This document shows, piece by piece, positions 1 through 45,714 of a DNA stretch of 52,635 nucleotides. The notes under the pieces are model-generated. The model was not told the origin of the DNA and did not search any database. It saw nothing but the letters and a program-made list of their open reading frames with translations. The stretch's first letter is position 1. Each line of letters begins with the position of its first letter. A program made the position numbers and the translations under genes. Source of the stretch: Candidatus Lokiarchaeota archaeon (GTDB lineage Archaea > Asgardarchaeota > Thorarchaeia > Thorarchaeales > Thorarchaeaceae); the NCBI GenBank assembly GCA_014730275.1, contig WJIL01000095.1, forward strand, positions 1 through 52,635. Reading direction: 5' to 3'.

Positions 1-1908
1 AATCACTCGTTTACTGTTGACAAGCTATATCCTTCACCAGAAGGAAATCTTACATCAGACCGGCTTGAGTCGTATGATATTCTCATACTGGTATGTCCTG
101 ACTACAATCTTACTAGCGATGAACGGACGGAGGTTCAGTCTTGGGTCCATTCAGGGGGGTCTCTCTTACTGATGTCCGATTCACCCACTTCGCATTCTGC
201 AAATGAGAAGCCTGTGGATCAAATCAATCAGCTAACAGGCCCGTTCGGGATGGAGATTGCTAATGGATTTGACTGGGATGTTACTGCACCGATAGTAAAG
301 CATCCCATCAGGGACCGAGCATCCTATGCTCGCTTGGAAATTGCTGGACCTATTAATATCACAGAAGGTGCCTTCCCGCTGGTTGAGAAGGATGATGACA
401 TCTTCATGGCTGCAAGAGAATATGGAAATGGTCGAGTGGTACTATCGGGCGATATGAATTGGCCTGATTTGAACCATCTCGAACTACAGGATAATCGCGA
501 CTGGGCATTCAACATAGTGAACTGGTTGGGCGCAAACGAAGCAGACACATTATTGTACTGTGATAATCTCATCTCGGACGATTTCTATGACAGCCCTGCT
601 TCGAAAGCATTGAACGAACTCGGAGTGGACTATTTCTTGGTGACTGATGCTAGCAATCTCAACCTGACGCTCCATGAGTATGAATGGGATCGAATCATCA
701 TTGACTCGGTCATGTGGGACGTTGCAGACTCCATTGAGCCCTTGATTGAACATCTTGACAACGGAGGATACCTTGCGATGGCCTGTAGTAATTTCGACAA
801 CCCGATTTATGAACCGCTTCTGAACATGATGGGGGTATCTCAGAACAACAACTATCCATCCAATTCTGAGTTCTATGTATGGGAAGAGGAGCATCCTATG
901 TTCTCACGACCTGTTAATATGAGTACGAGTTCCTTCAGTACGGTAAGCTACTACAGTGATGATGGAGATGAATTAAGCGTCTTAGACAACGCAACTGCAC
1001 TAGGTGGCTCCACCTCCCATGTAGATCCTGACAAAACCGCGCTGGCAGTGCGAGATGACGGTAAGACTATTGCTATGGGTTACATGTTCGATCAGATTGA
1101 TGGGGACAACGACAATTCAGCATATGCTGACAGTTTTGAAATGTGGCTCAACACAGTATCCTACATCTTTGCACCTTCTGTCGATAGTCCTCCTGACAGG
1201 AACTTAGAGCTGGGTACAAGTGGAGAATTCATCACTTGGCATCCATCTAGTTACAGACCTGACAGTTTCACCATCGAAGAGAACGATATTGTAATCGAGA
1301 GTGCGCTCTGGAACGGTGGTGACATTAGCCATTCTCTGGATGGATATGACACTGGAACCTATAACTTCACGTTGACAGTGATGGACTCGTTTGGTCAAAC
1401 AACTTCTGACGAAGTGCAAGTCGTGGTAGAAGACACGACTCTTCCTGTACTAGATTCCCCCTCGGATGTAGAGTTTACAGAAGGAGAGGAAGGTAACTTC
1501 GTCAACTGGACTGTTACCGACGTGCAAACAGGTATGTGGGAGCTTCTCGTTAACGGTACTTTGAACGAAACTGGTGCATGGTCCAGTGGTGACGAAATCT
1601 GGTTCGATGTCGATGGATTCGAAATTGGCACTCACAATCTCACTCTTCTTGTGTGGGATGAGAGTGGAAACATGGCAACTGACACGGTATTAGTTACAGT
1701 GCTCGAAGAATCCACCACAACAACTGAAACAACAACCACCACAACAACTGAAACAACAACCACCACAACAACTGAGACCACAGAAACCACGACAACGACT
1801 ACAGAACCCCCGGCTCCACCTGGTCTACCCATGGATATGCTGCTTATAGCGGCTGCAGCAGGAGTAGCGATTCTGATCCTACTCGTTGTCATAATGAAAC
1901 GAAAATAG
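1..1908 (+). CDS. Surface protein with GATase-like and Ig-like domains, Thr-rich stalk and C-terminal anchor (5' truncated)
   Basis: The reading frame is open from base 1, so the gene begins before the window; the first in-frame ATG (172) is internal, because the codons before it align with the paralogs (motif TVDKLYPSPEGNLTSDRLES corresponds to TFDKLYPSPDGNLTADRLEA in the next gene). About 635 residues are visible: the end of a Rossmann-like domain resembling DUF4350/class I amidotransferase-like folds, a second similar domain, two Ig/PKD-like beta domains (each starting near a D-S-P-S/P-D motif), a Thr-Glu-rich stretch, one transmembrane helix and a short KRK tail. It is probably a cell-surface protein with an O-glycosylated stalk. 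It is the most divergent of four tandem paralogs. No catalytic residues can be assigned; a binding or scaffold role is inference. Confidence 0.85.
   Translation, partial: NHSFTVDKLYPSPEGNLTSDRLESYDILILVCPDYNLTSDERTEVQSWVHSGGSLLLMSDSPTSHSANEKPVDQINQLTGPFGMEIANGFDWDVTAPIVKHPIRDRASYARLEIAGPINITEGAFPLVEKDDDIFMAAREYGNGRVVLSGDMNWPDLNHLELQDNRDWAFNIVNWLGANEADTLLYCDNLISDDFYDSPASKALNELGVDYFLVTDASNLNLTLHEYEWDRIIIDSVMWDVADSIEPLIEHLDNGGYLAMACSNFDNPIYEPLLNMMGVSQNNNYPSNSEFYVWEEEHPMFSRPVNMSTSSFSTVSYYSDDGDELSVLDNATALGGSTSHVDPDKTALAVRDDGKTIAMGYMFDQIDGDNDNSAYADSFEMWLNTVSYIFAPSVDSPPDRNLELGTSGEFITWHPSSYRPDSFTIEENDIVIESALWNGGDISHSLDGYDTGTYNFTLTVMDSFGQTTSDEVQVVVEDTTLPVLDSPSDVEFTEGEEGNFVNWTVTDVQTGMWELLVNGTLNETGAWSSGDEIWFDVDGFEIGTHNLTLLVWDESGNMATDTVLVTVLEESTTTTETTTTTTTETTTTTTTETTETTTTTTEPPAPPGLPMDMLLIAAAAGVAILILLVVIMKRK
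1717..1776 (+). repeat. 24-bp tandem repeat coding for the Thr-rich stalk
   Basis: Two identical 24-bp units (1717-1740 and 1741-1764) are followed by half a unit (1765-1776). They encode Thr-rich repeats with one Glu per unit. The perfect identity points to recent slippage or duplication, so stalk length may vary between strains. Confidence 0.9.
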
Positions 1909-1920
1909 CCTAACACCACA

Positions 1921-1955
1921 AGTGCCGGTATTCCGGCACTCCCCTTACTTTTTTG
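1921..1955 (+). terminator. Hairpin plus T-tract after the first surface-protein gene
   Basis: A perfect 8-bp stem (AGTGCCGG with CCGGCACT) encloses a TATT loop. A T-rich run follows within about 10 bases. It begins 12 bases after the stop codon. Closely similar hairpins follow the next three paralogs. Confidence 0.8.
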
Positions 1956-2002
1956 ATTATGATTCTCAACCAACCCAATTGGTGGAAGGTATGCTAATAC
2001 AT

Positions 2003-2029
2003 CATATATTATAGTAAAACCTGTTTTAC
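2003..2029 (+). promoter_or_regulatory. TATA-like box with adjoining palindrome upstream of the second surface-protein gene
   Basis: An AT-rich TATA-like stretch (about 2003-2013, core TATATTATAG) runs directly into a perfect inverted repeat, GTAAAAC-CT-GTTTTAC (2014-2029). The position fits a core promoter with an operator just downstream of the TATA box. The 5' leader would be roughly 50-60 bases. The palindrome is not repeated in front of the other paralogs. Confidence 0.4.
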
Positions 2030-2089
2030 CATCTTATTTTTTCGGGCAGGACTTATTAGGTCCTTTTCCGCGGAGCGCGAGGTGAAAAT

Positions 2090-4957
2090 TTGAAGCGCAT
2101 ATTTGCTATATTTATAGTCTCAGTATTTCTTGCGGGCTTCATTTATTCCCCTTTCACTTTGGGAATGTCAGAAGAGACGCCTCAAGGAGTACTTGGAGAT
2201 GAGCAATCTGTAATCCAACATGAATCCACAGAGATACTGGAACGGCAAATTCGTGTTGCGATATACAACTCTACCAACACAACCACACCATCCTATGCAG
2301 AAGGCTATGTTCAGGCAAACTACTCAAGCATACATGATCTTTTGTTGGAAGCTGGATTTGATGTAACCAGGATCACATCTCGTGATATTGCGGATTACAA
2401 GCTACAACCGTCCCGCTATGACATTCTGGTTCTTGCGGATAATGTTCCGTTGACAAATGAAACAGACATCGTCAAGGATTTCTGGCTTGGCGGGGGAGGA
2501 ATCCTAAGCTTCGATACTGCTGCATCGTATCTCTGCTATGAAGGGATCCTTCCAAGAGAAGCCGAGGGCACGGATGGATGTCCGAACTACTTTGGTTATC
2601 CATACAATTCATTCTACAATATTACAGCCCGGCATCCCGTGACACAGTCATATGAGCTTGATGACTCCATTACGATTCCCCATGACGATTGGGCGGCGTA
2701 TAATTGGAGTGCTCTGCAGGAATCATCATTAGCTGATGACGTTGTACGTCTTGTTACTGTCGCTAGCGACGATAACGAAGCGTATGGTGTGGCTTGTGAT
2801 CCTTTTGATATGGGTGGGAAAGTTGTTCATCTTGGTATTCCAATGGGAGATCAGTACCCAACCGACTTTGATGAGATGATAATTGATGCTGTTGAATGGA
2901 TCTGTCCCACTCCCAAGGGTCGTGTTGCATTTGATTTCTCGCATCGTCCATACTACGGCATTGATTCATGGGACGCATACTGTGATTTCGCAGGGAAATA
3001 CACGGAACTCAGAAACGATATTGTCAGCAGAGGTTACACATTTGATAAGTTGTATCCATCTCCTGACGGAAATCTGACAGCTGATCGGCTTGAGGCCTTC
3101 GATGTACTCATTCTTGAGGCTCCTACTCTGAATTACACCGAAGCTGAGGTCGCTGCTGTTGATTCTTGGGTTGATTCTGGTGGAGGACTGTACATTCTTT
3201 CGGATAGTTGGGGCTCAATGAACGAGGAATGTAGACACTTGCAGTATCTTATGTCATCTTACGATTTCTCCATCTATGAGAGAATGGCAGGGTTCACCGG
3301 CACGGTAAGTGAAGCAAGCAATCATCAAACGACAGAGTACTGCACATCATTGAGTTTGGTTGCTGCCGGCTTCCTGAATCTCTCAGGTGACGCTGTTTCT
3401 GTCTGGGAAGAGGGTGCTGATACATTTGCCGCTGCTGATCCCCATGGAAACGGGAGAATCTTGGTGATATCAGATATCCACTATGCTACAGACACCTACA
3501 TCGATGATAGCTCAAATCGGGAATACACCTTCAATGTCATAAACTGGTTATCTTCGGATGATGCAGAAGTACTGATCTTTACAAATGAACCAGAAGGTGA
3601 ATTATTCTGGACTGGGAAAAGCATCCATGCTGTTCAGACTCCTGTTGCACGGGCAGCAAACGAGCTCGGAATTAGCTTTGTGATTCACTCGGAAGCTGCT
3701 TTCTTCAATCGTTCGCTACGATCCCGGTTTTGGGATCTTGTTGTGTTTGATTGTCCTACCAGTCTAAGCGTTGGCTACATCGATGACATTGAGTGGTATG
3801 TTGAAACGGGTGGGGCGTTACTCATGAACTACTGGGGGATGTTCAATATTCCAAGTCATAGCTTATGGCCCAAGCTGGGAATTAACTACACCGGGCGCCT
3901 ATACAATCCAACACCTGTGTATCCCTGGGAAGACAATCATCCTCTTTTCACAATTCCAACACAGTATAAAGCCAGCAATTATAGTGGACCTCGAGATTAT
4001 GGCACAACTGGCACTCTGATGGAAGCATATGACAATGCGACCGTCTTGGCCGGTATTACTGAATCGCCAGAAGAGACTACTGCAACTCTTGTTCTTCGAA
4101 ACGACGGGAAAACGCTCTATAACTCATATTTGACGGATCAGTATGCCGAGGATATTGATGATTCCACATATGAGGATCGATTGGAGCTATGGCTGAATGA
4201 ACTGGCCTTCATGCTTCGACCTGAAATCGACAGCCCTTCAGATGCTGAAATAGAGTTCGGAACCACAGGTGAGAATGTTGTTTGGGATGCGGATAGCTAC
4301 AAACCACGCAACTACGTGCTGGAAGAAAATGGAGTTGTGATACGGAACTGTTCTTGGAATGGGGAGCCCATCTCCTTGTCTCTTGATGGTTACGCTGTTG
4401 GAACATACAGTCTTGCAATTACAGTGATTGATGAGATTGGTGAAACAGCTTCTGATATGGTTGAAGTGACTGTTGTGGACACAACGAAGCCGACAATAGA
4501 TGGGCCATCGGATATGGAATTCGTTAAAGGAGAAACCGGCAATGTTGTCAACTGGAGCATTTCAGATCTACGCCCCGCAGCATGGGAGCTTTTCATAAAC
4601 GGTACATCTAATCAGACTGGTACATGGTCTGATGGTGACGAGCTATCATTCAATGTAGATAACTTTGAAGTCGGTTCTCACCATCTCGTCTTGACAGTAC
4701 ATGATGAAAGCGGCAACTATGCAATCGATGTAGTGATTGTAACAGTGCTGGCAGAAAGTGCTGTGACTACAACGACCACAACGACAACTTCCACAGGCAC
4801 TACAACCACAACACAGCCAACCACGACAACTACGACGAATCCCACATCTACTACAGAGCCAACAGCAACCGGTTTACCCCAGAGTACGTTGATTGTACTT
4901 GCAGTATCCGGCGCGGTGATTTGCGTTTTGCTGATAGTAATTGTAAAACAGAGGTAA
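2090..4957 (+). CDS. Tandem surface protein, paralog 2 (three GATase-like domains, two Ig-like domains, Thr stalk, TM anchor)
   Basis: The start is TTG at 2090 behind a GGTG ribosome site. It opens a signal peptide (KRIFAIFIVSVFLAGFIYSP) that aligns with the ATG starts of paralogs 3 and 4. The 955 residues contain: signal peptide; three alpha/beta domains, each with a pattern like DVLVLADNVP...GGGGIL, resembling DUF4350 or non-catalytic class I amidotransferase folds (about residues 50-265, 275-500 and 500-700); two Ig/PKD-like domains (about 715-890); a Thr-rich linker; one transmembrane helix; and a KQR tail. Many N-x-S/T sequons fit an exported glycoprotein. The gene has its own TATA-like box and terminator, so it is probably transcribed alone. 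Function is unknown; ligand binding or cell-surface structure is inferred. Confidence 0.85.
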   Translation: MKRIFAIFIVSVFLAGFIYSPFTLGMSEETPQGVLGDEQSVIQHESTEILERQIRVAIYNSTNTTTPSYAEGYVQANYSSIHDLLLEAGFDVTRITSRDIADYKLQPSRYDILVLADNVPLTNETDIVKDFWLGGGGILSFDTAASYLCYEGILPREAEGTDGCPNYFGYPYNSFYNITARHPVTQSYELDDSITIPHDDWAAYNWSALQESSLADDVVRLVTVASDDNEAYGVACDPFDMGGKVVHLGIPMGDQYPTDFDEMIIDAVEWICPTPKGRVAFDFSHRPYYGIDSWDAYCDFAGKYTELRNDIVSRGYTFDKLYPSPDGNLTADRLEAFDVLILEAPTLNYTEAEVAAVDSWVDSGGGLYILSDSWGSMNEECRHLQYLMSSYDFSIYERMAGFTGTVSEASNHQTTEYCTSLSLVAAGFLNLSGDAVSVWEEGADTFAAADPHGNGRILVISDIHYATDTYIDDSSNREYTFNVINWLSSDDAEVLIFTNEPEGELFWTGKSIHAVQTPVARAANELGISFVIHSEAAFFNRSLRSRFWDLVVFDCPTSLSVGYIDDIEWYVETGGALLMNYWGMFNIPSHSLWPKLGINYTGRLYNPTPVYPWEDNHPLFTIPTQYKASNYSGPRDYGTTGTLMEAYDNATVLAGITESPEETTATLVLRNDGKTLYNSYLTDQYAEDIDDSTYEDRLELWLNELAFMLRPEIDSPSDAEIEFGTTGENVVWDADSYKPRNYVLEENGVVIRNCSWNGEPISLSLDGYAVGTYSLAITVIDEIGETASDMVEVTVVDTTKPTIDGPSDMEFVKGETGNVVNWSISDLRPAAWELFINGTSNQTGTWSDGDELSFNVDNFEVGSHHLVLTVHDESGNYAIDVVIVTVLAESAVTTTTTTTTSTGTTTTTQPTTTTTTNPTSTTEPTATGLPQSTLIVLAVSGAVICVLLIVIVKQR

Positions 4958-4968
4958 CAGTATATTCG

Positions 4969-5002
4969 AGGTGTCGGGAAACCGGCACTTCTTCACTTTT
5001 TT
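4969..5002 (+). terminator. Hairpin plus T-tract after surface-protein paralog 2
   Basis: A 7-bp stem with one G-T pair (GTGTCGG with CCGGCAC), extended by two weaker pairs, has a GAAA loop and ends in six T. Sequence and position match the hairpins behind the other three paralogs. Confidence 0.75.
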
Positions 5003-5091
5003 CATCTCTATATTTGTTCAAATCCTGAGATTGTAATTTTTTCACGTAGTGTTTATTAATGGGAATTTTGAACGACCAGCTTGGTGTGAAT

Positions 5092-7881
5092 ATGAAGCGC
5101 GTCACCATATTATTAGTGATAAGTATGTTTCTTGCCGGCTTAATCTTTTCGCCAACTGCTTTTAAAGCACAAAGCGGTGCTGGCCAAGAAATACCTCTAA
5201 ATACGAATCTTGGAATCCAACACGAAACAGCCAGCGTATTGCCTGGTCCAGTTCGTGTTGCACTATACAATTCAACTAACACGGTCGAGCCGGCATATGT
5301 AGCTGGTCAGGTTAGGACTAATTACTCTGCTGTCTATAATCTATTAGTCAATTCTGGATTTGATGTTACTAGAATCACATCTACTGACATTGCGAACTAT
5401 GAGTTGCAGCCTTCAGCCTATGATGTTCTGGTGTTAGCTGATAATGTGCCTTTAGCCAATGAAACAGACATTGTGAAAGATTTCTGGCTAGGAGGAGGCG
5501 GAATTTTAGGTTTGGACACCGCAGCATCCTATTTCTGCTATGAAGGAATTCTTCCCAGAGAAGCTGAGGGAACAAGCGGGAATCCCGAATACTTCAACTA
5601 TATCTACAATGATGTTGACAACGTAACTGCCAGACATCCGGTGACTCAATCGTATCAGATTGATGATTCGTTGTCCAAAGACTACGTTGATTTAGCTGCA
5701 TATAACTGGACAGCCTTGCAAGAATCGTCTATTGCAGACGATTTGACACGTCTTACCGCTGATGATGACAATGATGAATGGGCATTCGCTGTTGCTTCTG
5801 ATGCTTCGGATAGAGGCGGGAGAGTTGTCCACATTGGTATTACAATAGGAAACCTGTACCCAACTGATTTTGATGCCATGGTTGTCGATGCTGTTGAATG
5901 GATGTGTTCCCAGCCTAAGGGGCGTGTTGCTTTCGATTATTCCCATGAGCCCTACTATGGGGTGGACAATTGGGATGACTACTGTACGCTCTCAGGAAGA
6001 TACGAAGAACTCAGAGATGATATCGTAAGTAGGGGATTGACATTCGATAAACTGATGCCCTCATCTGGAGGGAATCTCACAGAAGCCAGGCTTGAATCTT
6101 TCGACGTACTGATAACGGTGCTACCAGATCTGAATTACACCTCTGCAGAAGTCAATGCGGTCGAGTCGTGGGTCAGTGAAGGTGGAGGACTTTACGCACT
6201 CTCCGATAGGTGGGCTCTTAGCTTGGTCGATAATTGTCAGAATCTAGATTCTCTACTCTCATCCTTCGATGTATCGATCTATGAAACTGGTGATGGTTCC
6301 AGCGTAACTGTCTCTGATCATAGTAATCATCCCACAACGGAGGGCTGCGGCTCCATAAGTGTAACCGCTCCCGGTTTCATGAATGTGACCGGTGATGCAG
6401 AAGCTGTTTGGTGGCAAGGAGGTAATACCTATGCGGGTGCTGATACTCATGATGAAGGACGTGTAATGTTGGTTTCAGACTCCAATTTTGCTGGTGATGC
6501 ATATATTGATGATAATAGCAACCGTGCGTTCACATTCAATGTCATTAACTGGCTATCATCGGATGATGCCGAGGTGCTGGTTTTCACAAATGAACCATCC
6601 GGTGAATCGTTTTGGACAGGAAAGAGCATTCATGGTCTCGAGACTCCGGTTGCCGAGGCGATGAATGAACTTGGAGTGTCCTATATGTTGCATGAAAGCA
6701 TGAGCTACTTCAACCGGTCTCTTCGGGCAGGGTCTTGGAACCTAGTCGTAATCGATGCACCTTGGGGTCTTTCCTCAGGCTCCTTAGATGACCTCGAATG
6801 GTATGTCGATAATGGTGGTAGATTCTTGATGAACTACTATCACATAACCATGAATCCTAGTCATAGCCTTTGGGGCAAGCTGGGCTTCAATTATACGGGA
6901 GACTTGTCATCTCCAACGCCAGTCTATACGTGGAATAGCAATCACCCCGTTTTCAAGATCCCTCTGGAATACGGAGCAAACAACTACAGTGGACCTCGTG
7001 ACTACGGTAGCACGGGGGACCTGCTACACGTCTTTGATAACGCGACTGCCCTGGCTGGAATCACGGAATCACCAGAAGAAGGAAACGCGACTCTCGTTCT
7101 CCGTAATGACGGAAAGACATTGTATGATTCGTACTTGACTGACCAGTACTCTGGCGATACGGATGATTCTACATATGAGGACAGGTTTGAGCTCTGGATG
7201 AATCAGCTAGCTTTCATGCTTAGACCTGAAATTGACAGTCCCTCAGATGTTGCTATGGAATTGGGAGATACTGGCGAAAGCGTAGTTTGGCAACCATCCA
7301 GCTACAAGCCTGCAAGCTACGTCATCAAGGACAATGGTACCAATATCGAAAGCGGTACATGGGACGGTGGAACTGTATCCCTCTCCCTCGATGATTTCGG
7401 ATTAGGGACACACATCGTTACTTGTACAGCAATTGATGTCTATGGTGAGAAAGAGATGGACAAAGTAATAGTCACGGTTGAGGACACAACCGCACCGGTT
7501 CTTGATACACCCGCTGATATCGAATACACCGAAGGGGAAACCGGCAATAAAATCGAATGGACTGTTACGGATCCTCAATCAGGTACTTGGGAGCTTCTGC
7601 TCAACGGTACTTCTGATGACACAGGTGCATGGTCCAGCGGTGGCGATGTCATTTCAATTAATGTGGACAACCTCGCGTCCGGAACCTACAACTTCACCAT
7701 GATTGTAGAAGATGGCAGCGGCAATTCAGCTAGTGATTTTGTTCTTGTTACTGTTGTTGAACCAACCGCTGGAGGACCATTTGGACTGCCAGAAACCATC
7801 TTTGGCATCGATACGTGGATTCTCCTAGTGGCCGCAGGTGTCATCATCCTGCTTCTGATAGTAGCGATAGCTAAGCGGTAG
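5092..7881 (+). CDS. Tandem surface protein, paralog 3 (no Thr-rich stalk)
   Basis: An in-frame ATG lies at 5059, but alignment with the paralogs places the start at 5092, where MKRVTILLVISMFLAGLIFS forms the signal peptide behind a GGTGTG site. The domain order is that of paralog 2: three alpha/beta domains, then two Ig-like domains (the second includes the motif TGNKIEWTVTDPQSGTWELL). The Thr-rich stalk of the other three copies is missing; a short Gly/Pro linker leads straight into the transmembrane helix (IDTWILLVAAGVIILLLIVA) and an AKR tail. The protein should therefore sit closer to the membrane than its relatives. Its length is 929 residues from the preferred start. Confidence 0.85.
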   Translation: MKRVTILLVISMFLAGLIFSPTAFKAQSGAGQEIPLNTNLGIQHETASVLPGPVRVALYNSTNTVEPAYVAGQVRTNYSAVYNLLVNSGFDVTRITSTDIANYELQPSAYDVLVLADNVPLANETDIVKDFWLGGGGILGLDTAASYFCYEGILPREAEGTSGNPEYFNYIYNDVDNVTARHPVTQSYQIDDSLSKDYVDLAAYNWTALQESSIADDLTRLTADDDNDEWAFAVASDASDRGGRVVHIGITIGNLYPTDFDAMVVDAVEWMCSQPKGRVAFDYSHEPYYGVDNWDDYCTLSGRYEELRDDIVSRGLTFDKLMPSSGGNLTEARLESFDVLITVLPDLNYTSAEVNAVESWVSEGGGLYALSDRWALSLVDNCQNLDSLLSSFDVSIYETGDGSSVTVSDHSNHPTTEGCGSISVTAPGFMNVTGDAEAVWWQGGNTYAGADTHDEGRVMLVSDSNFAGDAYIDDNSNRAFTFNVINWLSSDDAEVLVFTNEPSGESFWTGKSIHGLETPVAEAMNELGVSYMLHESMSYFNRSLRAGSWNLVVIDAPWGLSSGSLDDLEWYVDNGGRFLMNYYHITMNPSHSLWGKLGFNYTGDLSSPTPVYTWNSNHPVFKIPLEYGANNYSGPRDYGSTGDLLHVFDNATALAGITESPEEGNATLVLRNDGKTLYDSYLTDQYSGDTDDSTYEDRFELWMNQLAFMLRPEIDSPSDVAMELGDTGESVVWQPSSYKPASYVIKDNGTNIESGTWDGGTVSLSLDDFGLGTHIVTCTAIDVYGEKEMDKVIVTVEDTTAPVLDTPADIEYTEGETGNKIEWTVTDPQSGTWELLLNGTSDDTGAWSSGGDVISINVDNLASGTYNFTMIVEDGSGNSASDFVLVTVVEPTAGGPFGLPETIFGIDTWILLVAAGVIILLLIVAIAKR

Positions 7882-8187
7882 AATACCTCGTGGGAAGCGT
7901 CGGACAACCGGCGCTTCATCTTCTCTTTTTTCAATATACAACTCATCAAGCTTGCAGCTTAAATGCCCGAAATATGGAGGATGGCATTGGTTTCATTATG
8001 AGAAAGGGGCGAATGAAGTCTTCAATTATATGGCAATTATCTACTCATGTTTTTTTTTTGCCGAGGATGATTCGCTTATCGGACTATGCTTCTCTATTTT
8101 TCTTAACCATGCTTATATTTGGTTAATTAGCCGTAATATGAAATGTTTTTTATTAACTATTGTTAATATTGACCTGCTGATGATAAT
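7882..8187 (+). other. Intergenic region between surface-protein paralogs 3 and 4
   Basis: It holds the terminator at 7894-7931. Near the downstream gene there is a TATA-like sequence (about 8112-8120), a perfect inverted repeat ATTAAC-TATT-GTTAAT (8152-8167) and a 17-codon open frame (8138-8191) that overlaps the next start by ATGA. A longer open frame ending at the same stop (from 7952) has no recognisable product. Otherwise it appears AT-rich and non-coding. Confidence 0.5.
7894..7931 (+). terminator. Hairpin plus T-tract after surface-protein paralog 3
   Basis: A 10-bp stem with one G-T pair (GAAGCGTCGG with CCGGCGCTTC) and an ACAA loop is followed by a T-rich run ending in six T. Confidence 0.8.
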
Positions 8188-8191
8188 ATGA
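8138..8191 (+). CDS. Possible 17-codon leader peptide overlapping the start of paralog 4
   Basis: This short open frame begins with ATG at 8138 and stops at TGA 8189-8191, overlapping the ATG of the next gene as ATGA. Its first residues (MKCFLLTIV) resemble the start of the downstream signal peptide (MKRFAFILV). The flanking bases (TAATATGAAAnGTTTT) are duplicated at both starts. It could be a translationally coupled leader or simply a decayed duplicate of the gene's 5' end. Confidence 0.25.
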   Translation: MKCFLLTIVNIDLLMII

Positions 8192-11016
8192 AACGTTTTG
8201 CTTTCATTTTGGTAGCAAGCTTCCTTATTGCCGGCTTGTTTTTTTCTCCTAGCACCATGGAGGTTGCCGGACCTATCAATCAGGAAACTAGCCCAAACCA
8301 AAATCCAGTAACTCAACCAGAAAATGCAAGAGTTTTACCGGGAGAGGTTCGTGTTGCACTATATAACAGTACCAACTCGACCACGCCAGATTATTCATTT
8401 GGTAGCGTGATTGCAAATTATTCCGCAGTCTACGACCTCTTAGTTGATGCTGGATTTGATGTGACTAGGATAACATCCAGTGATATCGCTAATTATGAGT
8501 TACAGCCATCTGCTTACGATGTGCTGGTTCTTGCTGACAATGTTCCTCGAGAAGATGAGATCAATATCGTGAAAGATTTTTGGCTCGGAGGTGGAGGCGT
8601 ACTGAGCATAGATACTGCGATCACCTATTTGACTTATGAAGGAATTCTCCCAAGAGAAACAGAGGGAACACATGGAAAACCTGATTATTTTGATTATGTC
8701 ATTAACGATATTGATATTGTATACAATAGACATCCCGTAACTCAAGCGCATCAGGTTGGTGATTCACTGACCAAGCAAGATGCAGATTGGGCAATGTACA
8801 ATTGGACAGCCTTACAGGGAACGTCCATAGCTGATGAATTGACACGGCTAACCGTTGACAATGACGATGCTACCTGGGCTTCGGCGGTGGCTTCTGATGC
8901 CTCTGATAGAGGTGGAAGAGTTGTTCAAATCGGTATCCCGTTGGATCCTTATTCAACCGACTATAACGAGATGATAGTTGATGCTGTAGAATGGCTGACA
9001 CCACGCCCTAAGGGGCGAGTCGGTTTTGACTATTCTCACAAGCCTTACTACTCAATAGACCCATGGGACAGCTACTCTGAGTATTCAGGTAGATATGAAG
9101 AGCTAAGGGACGACATCGTTAGCAGGGGCTTTACATTAGACAAACTGCATCCATCGCCTATTGGCAACCTGACAGAGAATCGGCTGGCCTCATTCGATGT
9201 TTTAATAGCCGAGCTTCCAACGCTAAATTATACCGCGGCTGAGGTTAGTGCTGTTCAATCGTGGGTAAGTGCTGGTGGAGGCCTCTACGCAATCGCTGAT
9301 CAATGGGCTGGTAGTTTGATTGACTATAGCCAGAACCAGAACTACCTATTATCGCCATATGATGTCAGTGTCTCCGATGCGGGTATAGGATCCAGCGTCT
9401 CAGTTACAGGACATGGTACGCATCCAACTGTTGAGCTTTCTAGCTCTCTGGAACCCGTTGCGGGCGGCTATGTCAATATTACTGGAAATGCAGAATCCGT
9501 CTGGTGGGAAGAAGGAGATATCTATGCTGGAGCTGATATCCATAATTCGGGACGCATTATGCTCGTTTCAGATATCAACTTCGCCCAGGATTCCTATATA
9601 GATGATGGGAGCAATCGCAGGTTCACATTCAACGTGGTGAATTGGCTATCGGCTGACGATGCCGAGGTGCTGATTCTAACTAACCAAGCATATCCAGAGA
9701 ACATCTTCAGCAGCACGAGCATTCATGCCCTAGAAGCGCCAGTATCACTCGCAGCAAATGAGCTTGGAATGCCCTACATGGTTTACCAAGACGTGGCCTA
9801 TTTCAATCGATCACTCTACCAGCATTCGTGGGAATTGGTTGTTATTGATGCACCATGGGGTTTCAACTCAGACTATCTTGACGATTTTGAGTGGTATGTA
9901 GATAATGGAAATAGGCTCATCATGAACTGGTATCATATGACATCTACCCCGGTTCACAGCCTCTATCCCAAACTAGGATTCAAATACTCGGGAGACTTGT
10001 CGAACCCAACCTCAGTATATCCATGGGACTATACTCATCCCGTATTCAACAGGCCGTTGGATTACGGAGCAGGACATTACAGTGGTCCTTTAGACTATGG
10101 AAGTACTGGCGATGTACTAGAGGTTTATGACAATGCTACAGCTTTGGCTGGAATAAGTGCTCCTGAGAACGGGAAGGCAACATTGGTTCTTAGAAATGAC
10201 GGTAAGACCCTGTACAATTCCTACATCACAAATCAGTACACTGATGATATCGATGATTCCACATATGAGGATCGATTCGAGGTCTGGTTGAATGAGTTGG
10301 CCCTGATGTACAGGCCCTTTGTCGATGAGCCTTCGGACATTGTCATGGAATTGGGCACGACAGGTCAAGACGTTGCATGGAACCCATCCAGCTACAAACC
10401 AGATAGCTACGCAATAGAAGAAGATAGTGTGACTGTTGACAGCGGTTCATGGGGTGGTGGTTCAATCTCATACTCGCTCGATGGCTACGATGTGGGGACA
10501 TATGTCTTCACTTTGGAGCTGAAAGATGCTTATGGTGAAACCACCTCGGACACTGTTGAAGTAGTGGTAGAAGATACCATATCACCATCGCTTAGTTCAC
10601 CCTCAGACGTGCAATACACAGAGGGAGAATCTGGTAATTTTGTCAATTGGACTGCTACTGACCTCAACCCAGGCACATGGGAGCTCTTCGTCAACGGTAG
10701 CTCTGATGACACAGGCGTTTGGACCAGTGGAAGTGAGATTTGGATGAGTGTAGATGGATTTGATGCGGGTTTCTACAATCTCGAATTGGTAGTTGAGGAT
10801 GGAAGCGGCAACTCTGCAAGTGATACCATTACCGTGACGGTTGTCGAGGACACCACCACGACGACAACTACCACAACTACCACCACTGAGCCTACGACGA
10901 CCACAACGCCTCCACCCACTTCTGGACCAGCTGGATTGTCAATGCCTATTCTACTTGCTTTGATTGGTATGGCAGGTGTAATTGTTGTCCTCTTGGTAGT
11001 GATAGCAAAGAAGTAA
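8188..11016 (+). CDS. Tandem surface protein, paralog 4
   Basis: The ATG at 8188 begins a signal peptide (MKRFAFILVASFLIAGLFFS). The 942 residues repeat the architecture of paralogs 2 and 3: an N-terminal alpha/beta domain (RVALYNSTNSTTPDYSFG), a second (GRVGFDYSHKPYYSIDPWD), a third (ADDAEVLILTNQAYPEN), two Ig-like domains, a Thr-rich linker with a Pro-rich end, a transmembrane helix and a KK tail. It closes the array and has its own terminator. The Ig-like segments resemble surface-adhesin modules, but no catalytic or binding site can be named. Confidence 0.85.
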   Translation: MKRFAFILVASFLIAGLFFSPSTMEVAGPINQETSPNQNPVTQPENARVLPGEVRVALYNSTNSTTPDYSFGSVIANYSAVYDLLVDAGFDVTRITSSDIANYELQPSAYDVLVLADNVPREDEINIVKDFWLGGGGVLSIDTAITYLTYEGILPRETEGTHGKPDYFDYVINDIDIVYNRHPVTQAHQVGDSLTKQDADWAMYNWTALQGTSIADELTRLTVDNDDATWASAVASDASDRGGRVVQIGIPLDPYSTDYNEMIVDAVEWLTPRPKGRVGFDYSHKPYYSIDPWDSYSEYSGRYEELRDDIVSRGFTLDKLHPSPIGNLTENRLASFDVLIAELPTLNYTAAEVSAVQSWVSAGGGLYAIADQWAGSLIDYSQNQNYLLSPYDVSVSDAGIGSSVSVTGHGTHPTVELSSSLEPVAGGYVNITGNAESVWWEEGDIYAGADIHNSGRIMLVSDINFAQDSYIDDGSNRRFTFNVVNWLSADDAEVLILTNQAYPENIFSSTSIHALEAPVSLAANELGMPYMVYQDVAYFNRSLYQHSWELVVIDAPWGFNSDYLDDFEWYVDNGNRLIMNWYHMTSTPVHSLYPKLGFKYSGDLSNPTSVYPWDYTHPVFNRPLDYGAGHYSGPLDYGSTGDVLEVYDNATALAGISAPENGKATLVLRNDGKTLYNSYITNQYTDDIDDSTYEDRFEVWLNELALMYRPFVDEPSDIVMELGTTGQDVAWNPSSYKPDSYAIEEDSVTVDSGSWGGGSISYSLDGYDVGTYVFTLELKDAYGETTSDTVEVVVEDTISPSLSSPSDVQYTEGESGNFVNWTATDLNPGTWELFVNGSSDDTGVWTSGSEIWMSVDGFDAGFYNLELVVEDGSGNSASDTITVTVVEDTTTTTTTTTTTTEPTTTTTPPPTSGPAGLSMPILLALIGMAGVIVVLLVVIAKK

Positions 11017-34521: not shown

Positions 34522-35577
34522 GTGAGAACTTTGGTTAAGACAGATACTTTTCGGGGTAAGGATTACTTAACAATACTTGATTACTCCAAAGAGGAAATCG
34601 AAACCCTCTTGGATGTTGCACTTGACTTGAAGCGTAGGTATGCCTTGGGCGAACCGCATAGGCTACTTAGTGACAAGAGCCTCTTCATGATTTTCTACAA
34701 TAGCAGCCTTAGGACCAGAAACTCCTTCGAAGCTGGGATGACTCAGCTTGGCGGTCATGCTCATTTTCTTGATACCGACAAAATCTATGCACCTGCAATG
34801 GAAGGAGATGAGAAGGCCTATTCTACTGAACGAGTCTCCGATGTAGCTCGCGTGCTTTCACGGATGGGCGATGGCATTGCCATTCGATGCTATGGAGATC
34901 CGGTTGGCTGGAATTATGGAAAAGCAAACAAGATGTTAGAAAACTTCGCTTATTGGTCAGACACGCCTATACTCAACATGGAAGATGACGTCTACCACCC
35001 ATGTCAGGGTCTGGCTGATGTACTGACTGTGAAAGAGAAGTTTGGTGGATTCGATGATGTCAAGTTCGTGATGAGTTGGGCCTATTCGCCTTCGGTTCAC
35101 AAACCGCTTGCAGTCCCTCAGAGCGCTATTATTGCTGCGACTAAGATGGGAATGGATACAGTGCTTGCTCATCCGAAGGGAATGGAGCTGGATGACAAGA
35201 TTATCAAGGAATGCGAGGTAATGGCTGAGGAAAACGATTCGAGTTTCGATATCCAATATGACATGGAAGAGGCCTTTGAAGGTGCAGATGTTGTGTATCC
35301 AAAGGCTTGGACCTGCAAGGAGTACATCCCGCCATTCAATGATAAGGTTGAACTAGAGAAATCACAGAAAGTCTTCGACAAGAACAAGCATTGGATCTGC
35401 GATGAAGAAATGATGGAGATTGCAGGACCAAATGCTAAGTACATGCATTGCCTGCCTGCAGATAGAGGCTTTGAAGTTTCCAACTCGGTTATTGATGGAC
35501 CTCAGTCTGTTGTATTTGATCAAGCAGAAAACAGATTGCATGGTCAGAAGGCTGTAATGGCACTCACAATGAGATAG
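34522..35577 (+). CDS. Aspartate/ornithine transcarbamylase superfamily protein, N-acylornithine-type-like (1)
   Basis: The start is GTG at 34522. The 351 residues carry the carbamoyl-phosphate site as SSLRTRNSF and HPCQGLADVL, and the amino-acid loop as HCLPADRG. The closest visible pattern is that of the knotted N-acetyl- or N-succinyl-ornithine transcarbamylases: FVMSWAYSPSVHKPLAVPQS corresponds to the W-T-Y-H-P segment of those enzymes, and the end AENRLHGQKAVMALTM matches. It probably transfers a carbamoyl group to ornithine or a derivative. A perfect-stem terminator follows. The second copy is 4.2 kb away. Confidence 0.8.
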   Translation: MRTLVKTDTFRGKDYLTILDYSKEEIETLLDVALDLKRRYALGEPHRLLSDKSLFMIFYNSSLRTRNSFEAGMTQLGGHAHFLDTDKIYAPAMEGDEKAYSTERVSDVARVLSRMGDGIAIRCYGDPVGWNYGKANKMLENFAYWSDTPILNMEDDVYHPCQGLADVLTVKEKFGGFDDVKFVMSWAYSPSVHKPLAVPQSAIIAATKMGMDTVLAHPKGMELDDKIIKECEVMAEENDSSFDIQYDMEEAFEGADVVYPKAWTCKEYIPPFNDKVELEKSQKVFDKNKHWICDEEMMEIAGPNAKYMHCLPADRGFEVSNSVIDGPQSVVFDQAENRLHGQKAVMALTMR

Positions 35578-37558: not shown

Positions 37559-39388
37559 ATGATGAATAATAGACGAAAAGCAGTAGGCCTCACAATGGCT
37601 TTGGCTTTCTTGTTTATGGCGGTTTCACCTGCCATGATAAGCGCTGAAACAGGGACATCTGATTGGTCCAAAGCCGGACCTTATATTGACAAGGTTGTCT
37701 TCGATGTGATTCAGTCTCAGGATCAAACCGTTGTAGCCCTACTGGATGGTGAACTTGACCTCATAGGATCACAGGTTGATCCTAGCTTCCTGCCACAACT
37801 TGAAGAGGCGGAGAATATCGAAATCGCAGATGTATTGCGAAACGGTTATGGTTACGTTACTCTGAATACGAGGAAATATCCTCTGAACGAAACTGCCCTT
37901 AGGCGAGCCATAGCATTTGGGTTGGACAAACAGGCAATATCTGATGACATCTGGGACGGTCTTTCTGTACCACAGGACTCTCCTGTACCGCAGGTGAATC
38001 CCTTTTCCATTGAAGATCAGATGACCTACCATTACTACGAAGCAAACATAGAGAAAGGCAACGATTTGCTTGATGCCGCCGGTTTCCTAGATACTGATGA
38101 TGACGGATTCAGAGAAGCACCTAATGGTGAAGATTTCGATATTCTTGTCGAATGTGCACAGTCTTCTGAGATTGCGATTGAGGTGGGCCAGAAAGTGGCT
38201 GATGCTCTCGAAGCACTGAGCGTCGAAGCCGAATCAGTTCCAACCGACTTCTATGAGTATCTCAACCGACTGTATTACCACGGTGACTATGATATCGTGT
38301 TTCTCGGCTCAAACTTCAACGATTTTGATGTCGATTGGCTAGCCTATGAATTCTGGTCTGAATACACTGATGAGCCATTATGGAACTTCGCGAATTTCGC
38401 GAACGATAGCTATGATGGGTGGAGAGACCAGTTACTTCATGCAACAGAATACGACGATGTCTACGAAGCAGCGATAGAAATGCAGAGAATACTGACATAT
38501 CAGGTGCCGTATATCATCTGCTATGAGAACATTGTCCTGTCTGCCTATCGGACAGATAGATTTGAAGGTTTCATCAATGATGTCAGTGATGGAGTTCCCG
38601 GTTGGTGGACCAACATGAAGGTTCACTTGAAAGACTCCGAAGGTGGACCTTACGGAGGTACCTTCACCTGGAGTAACTCCCTAGACATAGATACCTTCAA
38701 CCTGATGGTTACCTCGAGTCAGTACTCTGTCAACATCCTTCAGATGATGTACGATAAGCTAATCGATGTCGATCCTGAGGGGCATGATGTACCTGATTTG
38801 GCAGAATCTTGGATTGTGGAAACACATGAAGATAATGCGGATATTCCTGATGGACATACTCGAATAACGTTCAATATGCTCCAGAATGCAACATGGACCG
38901 ACGGAAATCCAATAACTGCTGAGGATGCAGCCTTTACCCTGAACTACTACCGTGACTCCCCAGGCAATCCATCTGGATCTGGTTTAGACGAGATGACGGC
39001 CGCCTATGCTCCAACGCCATACACTCTGGAAGTGGAATTCAGTACTGAGTCGTACTGGCATCTGCATAGTGTCGCTTACAAGAACATTATTCCGAAGCAT
39101 GTGTTCGAGGACATAGGTCTGCAAGGTTGGAACGAATACAGCCCGGAACCTCCATCTGATGCTATGGTGACATCAGGTCCATTCAATGTCTCAGAGTATG
39201 TCGCAGGCGAGTTCACAGAACTCAGCTATAACCCGCTTTACTTCCACCGCTTGGATAGGCCAACCGATGGTGACATGACAACACCGGGAGCAACTCCTAC
39301 CAATCTAACACTCGCACTAGTGGCGGGTGCAGTTGGTGCCGCCGTTGTTATTCTTATCGGCGGATACGTGCTGATGCGGCAGAGATAA
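37559..39388 (+). CDS. Membrane-anchored family 5 peptide-binding protein with circularly permuted domain order
   Basis: The 609-residue exported protein has a signal peptide ending near SPAMISA. The chain then starts with YIDKVVFDVI, VVALLDGELDLIG and GYVTLNTRKYPLNETALRRA, all of which belong to the C-terminal half of SBP_bac_5 proteins. That half continues to about residue 355. Only then, from GGPYGGTFTWSNSLDIDTFN (about 362), does the canonical N-terminal half appear: MMYDKLIDVDPEG, VPDLAESW, NATWTDGNPITAEDAAFTLN (about 446) and SGPFNVSEYVAGEF, ending LSYNPLYFHRLDRP. A linker, a transmembrane helix (about 583-604) and RQR follow. Normal family members have the reverse order. It probably binds peptides outside the cell and delivers them to an Opp/Dpp-like importer. 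Confidence 0.85.
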   Translation: MMNNRRKAVGLTMALAFLFMAVSPAMISAETGTSDWSKAGPYIDKVVFDVIQSQDQTVVALLDGELDLIGSQVDPSFLPQLEEAENIEIADVLRNGYGYVTLNTRKYPLNETALRRAIAFGLDKQAISDDIWDGLSVPQDSPVPQVNPFSIEDQMTYHYYEANIEKGNDLLDAAGFLDTDDDGFREAPNGEDFDILVECAQSSEIAIEVGQKVADALEALSVEAESVPTDFYEYLNRLYYHGDYDIVFLGSNFNDFDVDWLAYEFWSEYTDEPLWNFANFANDSYDGWRDQLLHATEYDDVYEAAIEMQRILTYQVPYIICYENIVLSAYRTDRFEGFINDVSDGVPGWWTNMKVHLKDSEGGPYGGTFTWSNSLDIDTFNLMVTSSQYSVNILQMMYDKLIDVDPEGHDVPDLAESWIVETHEDNADIPDGHTRITFNMLQNATWTDGNPITAEDAAFTLNYYRDSPGNPSGSGLDEMTAAYAPTPYTLEVEFSTESYWHLHSVAYKNIIPKHVFEDIGLQGWNEYSPEPPSDAMVTSGPFNVSEYVAGEFTELSYNPLYFHRLDRPTDGDMTTPGATPTNLTLALVAGAVGAAVVILIGGYVLMRQR

Positions 39389-39818: not shown

Positions 39819-40850
39819 ATGAGTCTTTACGGTCGCGACCTGCTCTGCACGCAGGACTGGAGTATTGATGAGATAGAGAAGACCTTGGATTTGGCCAAGG
39901 AGATGAAAGCCAAGCGTTTTGACCACAGGCTGAAAAATTGTTTGGATAGACGCACGTTTTTCATGATGTTCTATAATCCGAGCGTCCGTACACGGCAGTC
40001 ATTCGAGTGTGCGGCAACCGAACTAGGGGGACATGCCCAGTTCCTGACACCAAAGACAATGCGTCTGAAGACTGAGAAATCAGCAGGTGAAACGGTTCAA
40101 GATGCAGCTACTGTGATGAGCCGGTATGCAGCAGCAATTGGTGTTCGTATTCTTGAAACAGCAATCTCAGAATATAGCCAGGGCCATGAATTGCTGGAGG
40201 AATATGCGAAATATGCCGATGTGCCAATCATAAGCATGGCACACGATAGATTCCACCCCTGCCAAGGACTAGCTGATGTCATGGGTATGAGGGAGCATGC
40301 AGGCGAGGATCTCAAAGGAAAGAAGATACTACAGGTCTGGGGGAAGGGTGCCCTGGTCAGGTCATGGTGCTCGGTTCAGGAAAGCATCCTAATTAATAGC
40401 CGACTTGGCCTGGATGTCACGTTGGCTCGTCCAGAAGGATATGATCTTGATCCTGAGGTCATGAAATGGTGCGAAGAGAATGCAGAAGAAGCAGATTCGA
40501 ATTTTGTAGTTACTGATGAACTTGAAGAGGCATACAAGGATGCAGATTTTGTCTACTCGCGCAATTGGATGTCTCCAAAATTCTATGATCGTGTGAACAA
40601 GCATGGTGTGGAAAAAGCCAAGGAGCTGGAAATAGAACAAGCAGCTCAGTTTGATGAATGGATCTGCGATAGCGAGAAGATGGAACTAACCAATGACGCA
40701 TTCTTCACCCATTGCGGTCCAGTTGACAGAAATGCAGAAGTTACAGACGAAGTCGTTGATGGTCCTAAGTCCATTGTCTACGATGTTGCAGAAAACCGCC
40801 TTCATGTTCAGAAGGCACTAATGGCCCTGACAATGGCACTGAAAGAATAA
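39819..40850 (+). CDS. Aspartate/ornithine transcarbamylase superfamily protein (2), altered substrate loop
   Basis: The 343-residue paralog of the gene at 34522 keeps the carbamoyl-phosphate motifs NPSVRTRQSFE and HPCQGLADVMG, and the ending AENRLHVQKALMALTM. The amino-acid loop reads HCGPVDRNAEV rather than the H-C-L-P of ornithine enzymes, and the second-domain segment is QVWGKGALVRSWCSVQESIL rather than WAYSPS. The acceptor is therefore probably not plain ornithine and differs from that of copy 1. The chain looks intact, so it is likely an active enzyme of unknown specificity. Confidence 0.8.
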   Translation: MSLYGRDLLCTQDWSIDEIEKTLDLAKEMKAKRFDHRLKNCLDRRTFFMMFYNPSVRTRQSFECAATELGGHAQFLTPKTMRLKTEKSAGETVQDAATVMSRYAAAIGVRILETAISEYSQGHELLEEYAKYADVPIISMAHDRFHPCQGLADVMGMREHAGEDLKGKKILQVWGKGALVRSWCSVQESILINSRLGLDVTLARPEGYDLDPEVMKWCEENAEEADSNFVVTDELEEAYKDADFVYSRNWMSPKFYDRVNKHGVEKAKELEIEQAAQFDEWICDSEKMELTNDAFFTHCGPVDRNAEVTDEVVDGPKSIVYDVAENRLHVQKALMALTMALKE

Positions 40851-42133: not shown

Positions 42134-43219
42134 TCAACTCAAGTCTTCCCAGCGTAAACACCGGATGAAATGACCAGGTTCAACTTCTCGATAGTCAGGT
42201 ACCGTGGTGCTACATTCATCAATAGCGAATTCACAACGAGGATGGAACGGGCACCCAGAGGGAATGTTTGCTGGATCTGGAGGGTTGCCTTGTATTCCCC
42301 GTAGACGCGGCCTTTCTTTGCCCTTTTTCATTTGCATCATAGCTATTCTTGGGTAGGATGCCATCAACCCTCTCGTGTATGGATGGTCAGGCTCATGGAA
42401 CATCTGTACCGCCTCTCCAAGCTCCATGATTTTTCCAGCATACATGACAGCCACTCGATTTGCCAAATCAGCTATGACACCGGCATCGTGACTAATTAGC
42501 AGCGTTGAAACATCGAATTCGTCACGAATCATCTCAAGCACATTGAGTATCTGTCTCTGAATAGTTACATCAAGTGCTGAAGTTGGCTCGTCTGCAATTA
42601 CCAGATATGGCCCAGAGATTATTGACATGGCAATGAGTATTCTTTGGGATTCTCCGCCGCTAAAACTACCCGGGTCCAGTACAAAGCGTGTTCCTGAATC
42701 AGCTAACTGCACAAGATCAAGATATTCAAGAACTTTCCTTTTCAGTTCAAGGAGTCTTACATCTTCCTTGTGAATTTCAACCGGTTCACCTGTTTGCATA
42801 CCAACACTATACTGTGGATTGAGAGCATGCCCAAGTCCTTGAGGTATAAGTGAAATCTCCCCACCGCGAATCTCGACCAATTCTTCTTCAGGGAGAGCAG
42901 TCAGCTCTTTGCCTCTGAAGACTACTTTTCCATGAACGCCCGCTCTCTCATTTCCTTTGTCATCAAATCTTTCCCGTAAACCGGGCGTGCTGGATGCACC
43001 TGCTTCGAATCTTGCTATCTTCTCAAAAAGACCTAGTATAGCCAGAGCAAGTGATGACTTCCCACAACCACTTTCGCCCAGGAGACCCAAGCATTCACCT
43101 TCATTCACTTCGAAAGATACATCATCGACTGCGCGGATGAGACCTTCTTTGGAAGGATAGTATGCTCTTAGATTTTCAACCCGCAAAAGTGCATCTTCTT
43201 CGGACACATTGCCCACCAT
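42134..43219 (-). CDS. Oligopeptide ABC transporter ATP-binding protein (OppD/DppD-like), canonical
   Basis: This cytosolic ATPase probably energises a peptide importer. Motifs are Walker A GESGCGKSS, Q-loop LIPQGLGHALNP, signature FSGGESQRI, Walker B YLVIADEPTSALD and switch His in LLISHDAGVIADLAN, all intact. The C-terminal extension holds SGCPFHPRCEFAIDEC and a fourth Cys (FIRCLRW), matching the 4Fe-4S site reported for Dpp-type ATPases. The frame extends back to ATG 43246, but 43219 (MVGNVSEEDALLRVENLRAY) fits the family N-terminus better. No permease is nearby. It is divergent from the DUF362 gene. Confidence 0.9.
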   Translation of the reverse strand: MVGNVSEEDALLRVENLRAYYPSKEGLIRAVDDVSFEVNEGECLGLLGESGCGKSSLALAILGLFEKIARFEAGASSTPGLRERFDDKGNERAGVHGKVVFRGKELTALPEEELVEIRGGEISLIPQGLGHALNPQYSVGMQTGEPVEIHKEDVRLLELKRKVLEYLDLVQLADSGTRFVLDPGSFSGGESQRILIAMSIISGPYLVIADEPTSALDVTIQRQILNVLEMIRDEFDVSTLLISHDAGVIADLANRVAVMYAGKIMELGEAVQMFHEPDHPYTRGLMASYPRIAMMQMKKGKERPRLRGIQGNPPDPANIPSGCPFHPRCEFAIDECSTTVPDYREVEPGHFIRCLRWEDLS

Positions 43220-43343
43220 AGACACCAAAACCAACACTACTGCCATTAAAACGCTATTGAACTGGGTATTGCCAGTTTCTTCTTGGTACCGATGAGTTAA
43301 TCAGTTATCGACAGGACTGAATCTGAACAAGGTGAAACGGTGA

Positions 43344-44559: not shown

Positions 44560-45714
44560 TTAGAACTTCGGTAGATTCTCATATCTGTGGCAGAAAATCC
44601 AGTATTCCGGCTCCACTTCTCGGTATTCTGGAACTTGCTCCTTGCATATGCTCTTCGCATACTGACAACGAGGATGAAAAGGGCAACCTGATGGGAGATT
44701 TGTCATATCCGGGGGTTCGCCAGGGATACCCCGGATACGCATTCCCCTCTCTCTGATTCGTCGCATCATTTTGAGTGGCGGATTGCTCATGATGAATGCG
44801 CGAGTGAAAGGATGTCCCGGTGTTTTTAGAACTCTTTTCGCGTTTCCAAATTCCATGATCCTTCCAGCTGACATCACAGCTACCCTATCACTGGTATCAG
44901 CAATCACTCCTTGATCATTACTGATGAGCAGCATAGAAAGGTCGAGTTCCTTTCTTGCTAGTCTGAGAGCTTCAAGAATCCGATTCTGAATGCCAACGTC
45001 TACTGCAGTTGTTGGTTCGTCCGCAATCAGTAACGAGGGCTTAGTCACAAGTGCCATCGCTATGAGAATACGTTGATCCTCTCCAACAGAAAACTCGCTT
45101 GGCTTGAGGTTCTTCCGTACATCAGGATCAGCCAACTCCACGAGATCTAGAACCTCAAGTACTCGCTTTGCTACTTCCCATTCGAACAGGACTTCATCTT
45201 CATCATGAGTCCAGAGCGCTTCTGCAGTTTGGAGCTCAATTTGTGTGTACGGATTCATTGACTTTCTTGTGCCCTGAGGAACGTAGGTGATATCATCCCC
45301 TCGAACCTCTCTGTAATCCTTGTCATTTAGCCCCACAAGGTCTTCTCCCTTGAACCAAATGTGGCCTTCTACTCCTGGGAGGTCCCGCCCTACCTCTTCC
45401 GAAGTGATACCTTTCTTTCTTGCTTCATCTCTTATCTTCCATAGCTTCTTGTTCTCTTCGTGGCCGGATGTAGATGCATAGTATCTGGAAAATCGATCAA
45501 AAATACCAAGAATTGCAAGAGCAACAGAGGTTTTTCCTGCGGCTGATTCACCAAACAGTCCAACCGCTTCACCTGGTTTGATTCCAAAGGATACATCGTT
45601 TACAGCTTTGACTAGCCCCCGTTTCGAAGTATAGTACGCTTTCAGATTCTCTACTTCGAGAATGTAATTATCATCTTCATCTGGCATGGCAGTAAAAGAT
45701 TGTGTTGAATCCAT
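44560..45714 (-). CDS. Oligopeptide ABC transporter ATP-binding protein, degenerate catalytic motifs
   Basis: The 384-residue paralog of the ATPase at 42134 has Walker A GESAAGKTS and Walker B LLIADEPTTAVD. Its signature reads FSVGEDQRI (Gly to Val in S-G-G) and the switch His is Asn (LLISNDQGVIADTSDRV). The C-terminal Fe-S type Cys set (SGCPFHPRCQYAKSIC and FCHRY) is kept. An extra segment of about 35 residues (SGHEENKKLWKIRDEARKKG and following) lies between Walker A and the Q-loop. In a heterodimer with the other ATPase one ATP site would be weak, as in asymmetric ABC proteins. It is separated from that ATPase by the opposed DUF362 gene. Confidence 0.9.
   Translation of the reverse strand: MDSTQSFTAMPDEDDNYILEVENLKAYYTSKRGLVKAVNDVSFGIKPGEAVGLFGESAAGKTSVALAILGIFDRFSRYYASTSGHEENKKLWKIRDEARKKGITSEEVGRDLPGVEGHIWFKGEDLVGLNDKDYREVRGDDITYVPQGTRKSMNPYTQIELQTAEALWTHDEDEVLFEWEVAKRVLEVLDLVELADPDVRKNLKPSEFSVGEDQRILIAMALVTKPSLLIADEPTTAVDVGIQNRILEALRLARKELDLSMLLISNDQGVIADTSDRVAVMSAGRIMEFGNAKRVLKTPGHPFTRAFIMSNPPLKMMRRIRERGMRIRGIPGEPPDMTNLPSGCPFHPRCQYAKSICKEQVPEYREVEPEYWIFCHRYENLPKF

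Follow-up and report, generated by a model that had tools for sequence, protein, structure and literature searches.

A rotated family 5 binding domain

Judged from its sequence, the 609-aa protein encoded on the plus strand at positions 37559 to 39388 of the window (the whole 52,635-nt stretch of DNA analyzed here) is a genuine circular permutant of the family 5 solute-binding proteins (SBPs; SBP_bac_5, PF00496), homologous to them and a topological variant of their domain. Very probably, it is a secreted and anchored cluster C (OppA/DppA-like) protein that keeps the ordinary fold, likely captures peptides for an importer, and originated by duplication. The ORF, which begins with ATG, has the limits given in an earlier note that proposed the permutation from the letters alone, and the layout described there was borne out. 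A signal peptide (aa 1 to 29, MMNNRRKAVGLTMALAFLFMAVSPAMISA; 37559 to 37645), recognized by sequence and hydropathy with its cleavage site placed by inspection, precedes segments of the canonical C-terminal half. The first of these is the M segment (aa 40 to 189; 37676 to 38125), the canonical mid-domain placed first here, which opens with GPYIDKVVFDVI and was delimited by segment HMMs and Pfam. The L segment (L1 plus L2, aa 190 to 361; 38126 to 38641; segment HMMs), the canonical C-terminal part, ends with the residues KVHLKDS, which directly abut EGGPYGGTF. This joint (38618 to 38659), placed by alignments and an AlphaFold2 (AF2) model, thus leads through a few-residue linker from the canonical C terminus (KVHLKDS) to the canonical N terminus (EGGPYGG). 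From residue 362 on follows the N segment (aa 362 to 564; 38642 to 39250; HMMs), canonically N-terminal and placed last here, which closes with SGPFNVSEYVAGEFTELSYNPLYF. A linker, a hydrophobic transmembrane anchor identified by hydropathy (aa 583 to 601, LTLALVAGAVGAAVVILIG; 39305 to 39361), and a basic tail, MRQR, terminate the protein. Peak 19-residue hydropathy reaches 2.07 in the signal peptide and 2.53 in the C-terminal segment, with at most 1.09 in the domain interior. The breaks sit where the halves normally meet, as had been proposed: GPYIDKVVF, which comes after NPxYW in canonical members, starts M behind the signal peptide in the window protein, and the N half closes with NPLYF.

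Pfam matches the protein to PF00496 in two swapped stretches (E value of 8.9e-59; 199.9 bits against a cutoff of 32.4), aa 36 to 269 corresponding to profile positions 141 to 364 and nucleotides 38789 to 39250 (aa ∼411 to 564) to positions 3 to 143. The collinear order N-M-L is therefore absent, and the segments read M-L1-L2-N, here called type 1. Segment HMMs found N, M, L1, and L2 once each, so that the protein holds one complete domain, neither truncated nor duplicated, between its signal peptide and anchor. Sequence matches in the PDB are swapped likewise: solved SBPs begin with the counterpart of the query's C-terminal part and finish with that of its N-terminal part (e.g., in 7ebm, query residues 425 to 564 match chain residues 57 to 190, and 109 to 354 match 266 to 519). 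When the N half was moved back to the front, as a pure domain rotation with leader and tail omitted, a single collinear PF00496 match resulted (positions 3 to 364 of 368; 213.6 bits, compared with 199.9 in the natural order), and the rotated-back protein could be aligned over its entire length with canonical members from archaea.

The new junction is conserved in alignments of 14 and of 64 rows. Thirteen relatives 46 to 72% identical to the window protein nearly all align across it, and over 60 relatives, drawn from dozens of genomes, are collinear through it, which excludes an accident of assembly as the source of the rotated order. An artifact could be suspected in a genome (G000) that does contain tandem SBP arrays (five genes on contig C61) and a paralogue split over two ORFs (on C44): the sequence might be misassembled, the gene might be an array member with a frameshift or truncation, or adjacent SBP genes might have merged into a chimera. 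However, the same order and junction recur in those independently assembled genomes at 25 to 72% identity to the window protein, and the relatives examined carry their own signal peptide and anchor with one copy per segment. The probability left to such an artifact is negligible, and a misassembled duplicated domain or a truncated gene was dismissed on the strength of the many independent genomes. Neither outcome that the earlier note had named as refuting the permutation, a single collinear match or a misassembled duplication, was observed.

The predicted structure agrees with a true permutation. AF2, supplied with 64 aligned type 1 rows, returned one compact fold (pLDDT of 94.9, pTM of 0.90) with high confidence on either side of the new joint; this run superseded an earlier, mediocre one with 14 rows (pLDDT of 74). 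Order-dependent Foldseek searches with the model listed only family 5-type binding proteins (TM of 0.41 to 0.48), in alignments of ∼280 to 345 columns, about half to three-fifths of the chain, as expected where the segment order differs; none of the solved structures listed matched the whole chain in the order M-L1-L2-N. By this high-confidence model, the window protein would adopt the ordinary two-lobed SBP fold of cluster C. Permuted and duplicated proteins can domain-swap, and both halves are complete here with a short linker at the new joint, features that would suit a dimer or larger unit in which complementary halves of neighboring molecules pair. We regard this arrangement as very improbable. 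The single chain was modeled with high confidence across the joint; in family 5 proteins, the native N and C termini belong to one domain, as established for OppA; and a direct joint between them would itself be expected to have a short linker.

Rotated forms across archaea

The permutation is not confined to the window protein. Named relatives belong to metagenome-assembled genomes called Candidatus Thorarchaeota and Lokiarchaeota, and the window's own genome (G000, Thorarchaeota-like) yields 29 PF00496 matches, which resolve into 14 type 1 proteins, one small fragment, and one type 2 protein (L1-L2-N-M), with no canonical-order SBP_bac_5 gene among them. Incomplete type 1 genes are those on C96 (cut at the contig start, its product having a signal peptide and then the M segment), C52 (beginning at the contig end), and C44, the split paralogue mentioned above. 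Region 48000 to 66000 of C61 (L033) holds the array of five type 1 paralogues together with an SBP fragment (C61:60767-60994); no permease genes were noticed among its listed, partly annotated ORFs. The permuted profile found matches in 37 of the 38 genomes sampled from the same family, and the majority of these matches follow the whole profile collinearly; full-length type 1 proteins of roughly 25 to 30% identity occur in families f9, f21, and f28 of the phylum. Canonical SBP_bac_5 proteins are also present in both the family and the phylum.

Several paralogues carry or adjoin other modules. A 2,520-aa protein on C20 (L034:876-8435, minus strand) combines a type 1 SBP domain with a subtilase (PF00082; E value of 9.7e-35), Ig-like repeats, and a C-terminal transmembrane segment, an architecture suggesting that a single molecule both produces and captures peptides. 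Long ORFs with the same permuted domain occur in relatives (L032; G001:C50 and G007:C110, in frames of 2,587 to 2,597 aa). Another type 1 gene adjoins an ORF with a weak presenilin match (L038:3100-4011, minus strand; 28 bits, below the cutoff of 34.3). Within the window, four large genes in succession (positions 172 to 11016) encode secreted proteins that carry Ig-like repeats and C-terminal anchors, three of them with Thr-rich stalks; similar Ig-like modules come after the SBP domain in the paralogue on C138 (L035).

Segment HMMs built from canonical and rotated-back sequences were used to score every ORF in the fetched loci. All four segments were found in 208 proteins, a set biased toward permuted relatives, whose proportions are therefore not frequencies: 110 were canonical (N-M-L1-L2), 70 type 1, 24 type 2, and 3 type 3 (L2-N-M-L1). 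None of the 208 archaeal proteins showed any of the 20 noncyclic orders, as circular permutation predicts. The one remaining protein, at first an apparent noncyclic case, a 1,026-aa lipoprotein-like ORF (L260:810-3887, plus strand; genome G422, family f72), turned out to be an in-frame tandem duplication (N-M-L1-L2-N-M-L1-L2) that matches PF00496 in two stretches with 606 bits and is followed by an OppB-like permease gene. Rotation has thus recurred in archaea, in no fewer than three noncanonical forms, and the search for archaeal proteins of the window protein's order, which the earlier note had suggested, returned many in several families along with the other rotations. Identity between rotated and canonical relatives reaches 60 to 80%.

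Individual assignments required inspection of the segment order. The gene on C1 of G000, with a Pfam match spanning positions 1 to 287, looked by that profile like the only canonical one in the genome, but canonical orthologues of ∼60% identity identified it as type 2. Matches of the permuted profile in G274 and G276 proved canonical, their halves matching in swapped coordinates, and a 707-aa G274 protein first taken as canonical is type 3. Bacterial plasmid matches with 80% query coverage were considered as permuted candidates, and all three inspected (two from Alphaproteobacteria and one from Deinococcus) were canonical.

The type 2 protein of C1 is 61% identical to canonical orthologues of its own family over N-M and 56% over L. 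Its C-terminal anchor aligns in place with theirs (43%; 59% for L105 versus L110), and the signal peptides are similar in kind and align weakly. Type 2 was further found in f9, f12, and f21, and also in f85 and f87, where leaders combine twin-arginine and lipobox motifs typical of haloarchaea; in several f85/f87 ORFs the Pfam match covers positions ∼1 to 287 and the piece from ∼287 to 367 lies upstream in the same ORF. A type 2 protein of f36 shares 66% and 61% identity with its canonical counterpart in f34. Type 3 occurs in f34, probably Thermococcaceae, with a beta-glycosidase-like gene nearby. Here, the type 3 protein L208 and the canonical L215 are 79% identical and occupy the same locus, with flanking DNA collinear on both sides (78% and 83%). 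They differ in the place of a ∼290-bp block, which follows L1 in L215 but has moved to a position directly after the signal peptide in L208, leader and anchor being unmoved. From this sequence comparison, L208 is a very recent circular permutation. Within the f34 lipoprotein family, L184 (type 3) and L217 (type 1) are 74% identical despite their different rotations.

Number of origins and route of rotation

On a maximum-likelihood tree of 131 rotated-back proteins, a quick tree with weak deep branches, 14 order changes were needed; each may be a gain or a reversal, which makes the exact number of events uncertain. The starred branches alone call for at least six changes for type 2, at least two for type 1, and at least two for type 3, and a smaller tree agrees in direction. 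More than one independent origin of rotation is thus well supported by the sequences. In Asgard archaea, type 1 seems to go back to a single ancient event (support of 80 to 88), after which its paralogues multiplied greatly.

Most likely, rotation arose by duplication and deletion, which is the simplest route for the recent cases. The mature domain, flanked by signal peptide and anchor, would have been duplicated in tandem and in frame; the first copy would then have lost its front part and the second its rear part. The native termini would thereby have become fused via the few-residue linker, and the loop that connects the NPxYF motif with GPYIDKVVF would have been opened to give new ones. 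Duplication with loss of redundant ends, with tandem intermediates expected, is the explanation given for permutation in saposin/swaposin and DNA methyltransferases (PMC3320104). The SBPs would resemble these systems in route and differ in that signal peptide and anchor were kept on either side of the rotated block, so that each of the two losses would be a deletion inside the gene. A domain-doubled family member, the form of the expected intermediate, does exist: L260, beside an Opp-type permease. Alternatively, a block may have been relocated directly. Fission and fusion, in which the halves would once have been separate genes and were re-fused in a new order, is the other of the two accepted models of permutation (PMC3320104), and we consider it improbable for these proteins. 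Separate half-genes were not seen as a stable form, a tandem duplicate exists, and in the L208/L215 pair signal peptide and anchor stayed fixed as the interior block alone moved, a pattern better fitted by duplication/deletion or block transposition.

Nearly all rotated proteins of the set examined here are tethered: those of Asgard archaea by a C-terminal transmembrane segment, those of haloarchaea-like genomes and some of f34 by a lipobox at the N terminus. Most canonical proteins are tethered too, and tethering alone therefore does not explain rotation. A broader reading, that permutation of tethered family 5 proteins in archaea is recurrent, ongoing, and selected, is possible but, taken as a whole, somewhat doubtful; its recurrence component is supported, and selection is its speculative part. 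On this reading, duplication and internal deletion would keep re-opening the domain at a small number of permissive loops, and the rotations would be retained for altering the suspension of the lobes from the anchor or their contact with the permease.

Function, precedents, and significance

At the cell surface, the window protein would capture peptides or related oligomers and hand them to an Opp/Dpp-type ABC importer. It is most likely a putative binding subunit of such an importer, given its homology, its leader and anchor, and the neighbors of its relatives. The related SBPs among the PDB matches bind peptides, sugars, nickel, or opines, a diversity that keeps sequence from assigning a ligand. 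No permease gene adjoins the window gene. Two Opp/Dpp-type ABC ATPases assigned by Pfam (ABC_tran plus oligo_HPY) lie 3 to 6 kb away on the opposite strand (42134 to 43246 and 44560 to 45714), the first being a possible transporter partner. The SBP gene is flanked by two carbamoyltransferase paralogues (34522 to 35577 and 39819 to 40850), both scoring highest as N-acetylornithine carbamoyltransferase at values below the cutoff (285.8/288 and 262.4/288 bits), which leaves their substrate uncertain.

The lack of neighboring permeases, the 14 type 1 genes of G000, most of which have no permease next to them in the ORFs inspected, and the membrane-anchored subtilase/Ig-like fusion of 2,520 aa would also fit surface peptide receptors or scavengers that are not importer subunits. 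As the main role of the permuted proteins this is unlikely, although some of the many orphan or fused paralogues may act in that way. Orphan SBPs commonly feed shared permeases, and several rotated genes do lie with Opp-type permeases: OppC/OppB-type permease genes immediately precede the start of the type 1 gene on C96, in the same orientation, the type 2 gene of G000 adjoins an OppB-type permease, and OppB- and OppC-like genes come after L217 (the f34 type 1 gene) and L218.

With OppA, AppA, DppA, and NikA, canonical members of cluster C, the window protein shares homology over the whole domain in all segments, the same predicted fold, secretion, and anchoring, and its relatives sit with Opp-type permeases. 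It differs in the order M-L1-L2-N instead of N-M-L1-L2 and in an anchor behind the canonical N half. The earlier note knew of no description of such a permutation. That holds for family 5, since we found none of permuted family 5 or archaeal SBPs in the open-access literature (an absence that is weak evidence), but not for SBPs at large. TpMglB-2 (Tp0684) of Treponema pallidum, a membrane-tethered glucose-binding ABC protein of Type I/cluster B, is naturally permuted and was proposed to form "Type Ic/Cluster Bc"; its authors speculate that tethering favored rotation (PMC4990184). The likeness lies in a natural circular permutation of a tethered ABC transporter binding protein. TpMglB-2 belongs to another cluster, has another breakpoint, and represents one rotation, its moved part being 13% identical to the canonical counterpart (PMC4990184), in contrast to the 60 to 80% reached by the archaeal forms. 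Matching PF00496 and cluster C structures, the window protein falls outside Type Ic/Cluster Bc; the kind of rotation is similar. Engineered biosensors are described as laboratory SBPs with new termini or inserted domains (for example, PMC6335823), whereas the archaeal permutants are natural. What is known, then, is a permuted binding protein of another cluster, and what is new is a topology variant of family 5 with an unusual, testable recurrence.

Circular permutation in nature is mostly known from isolated events of great age. In contrast, a single widespread family of transporter proteins offers all four rotations of its four segments, rotated and canonical relatives of 60 to 80% identity, one rotation at a locus whose position is conserved, and a tandem duplicate of the kind expected as intermediate. 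The route of circular permutation and its cost or benefit thus become directly testable, probably in culturable relatives, and many archaeal peptide-binding proteins are misread by collinear profile and structure searches.
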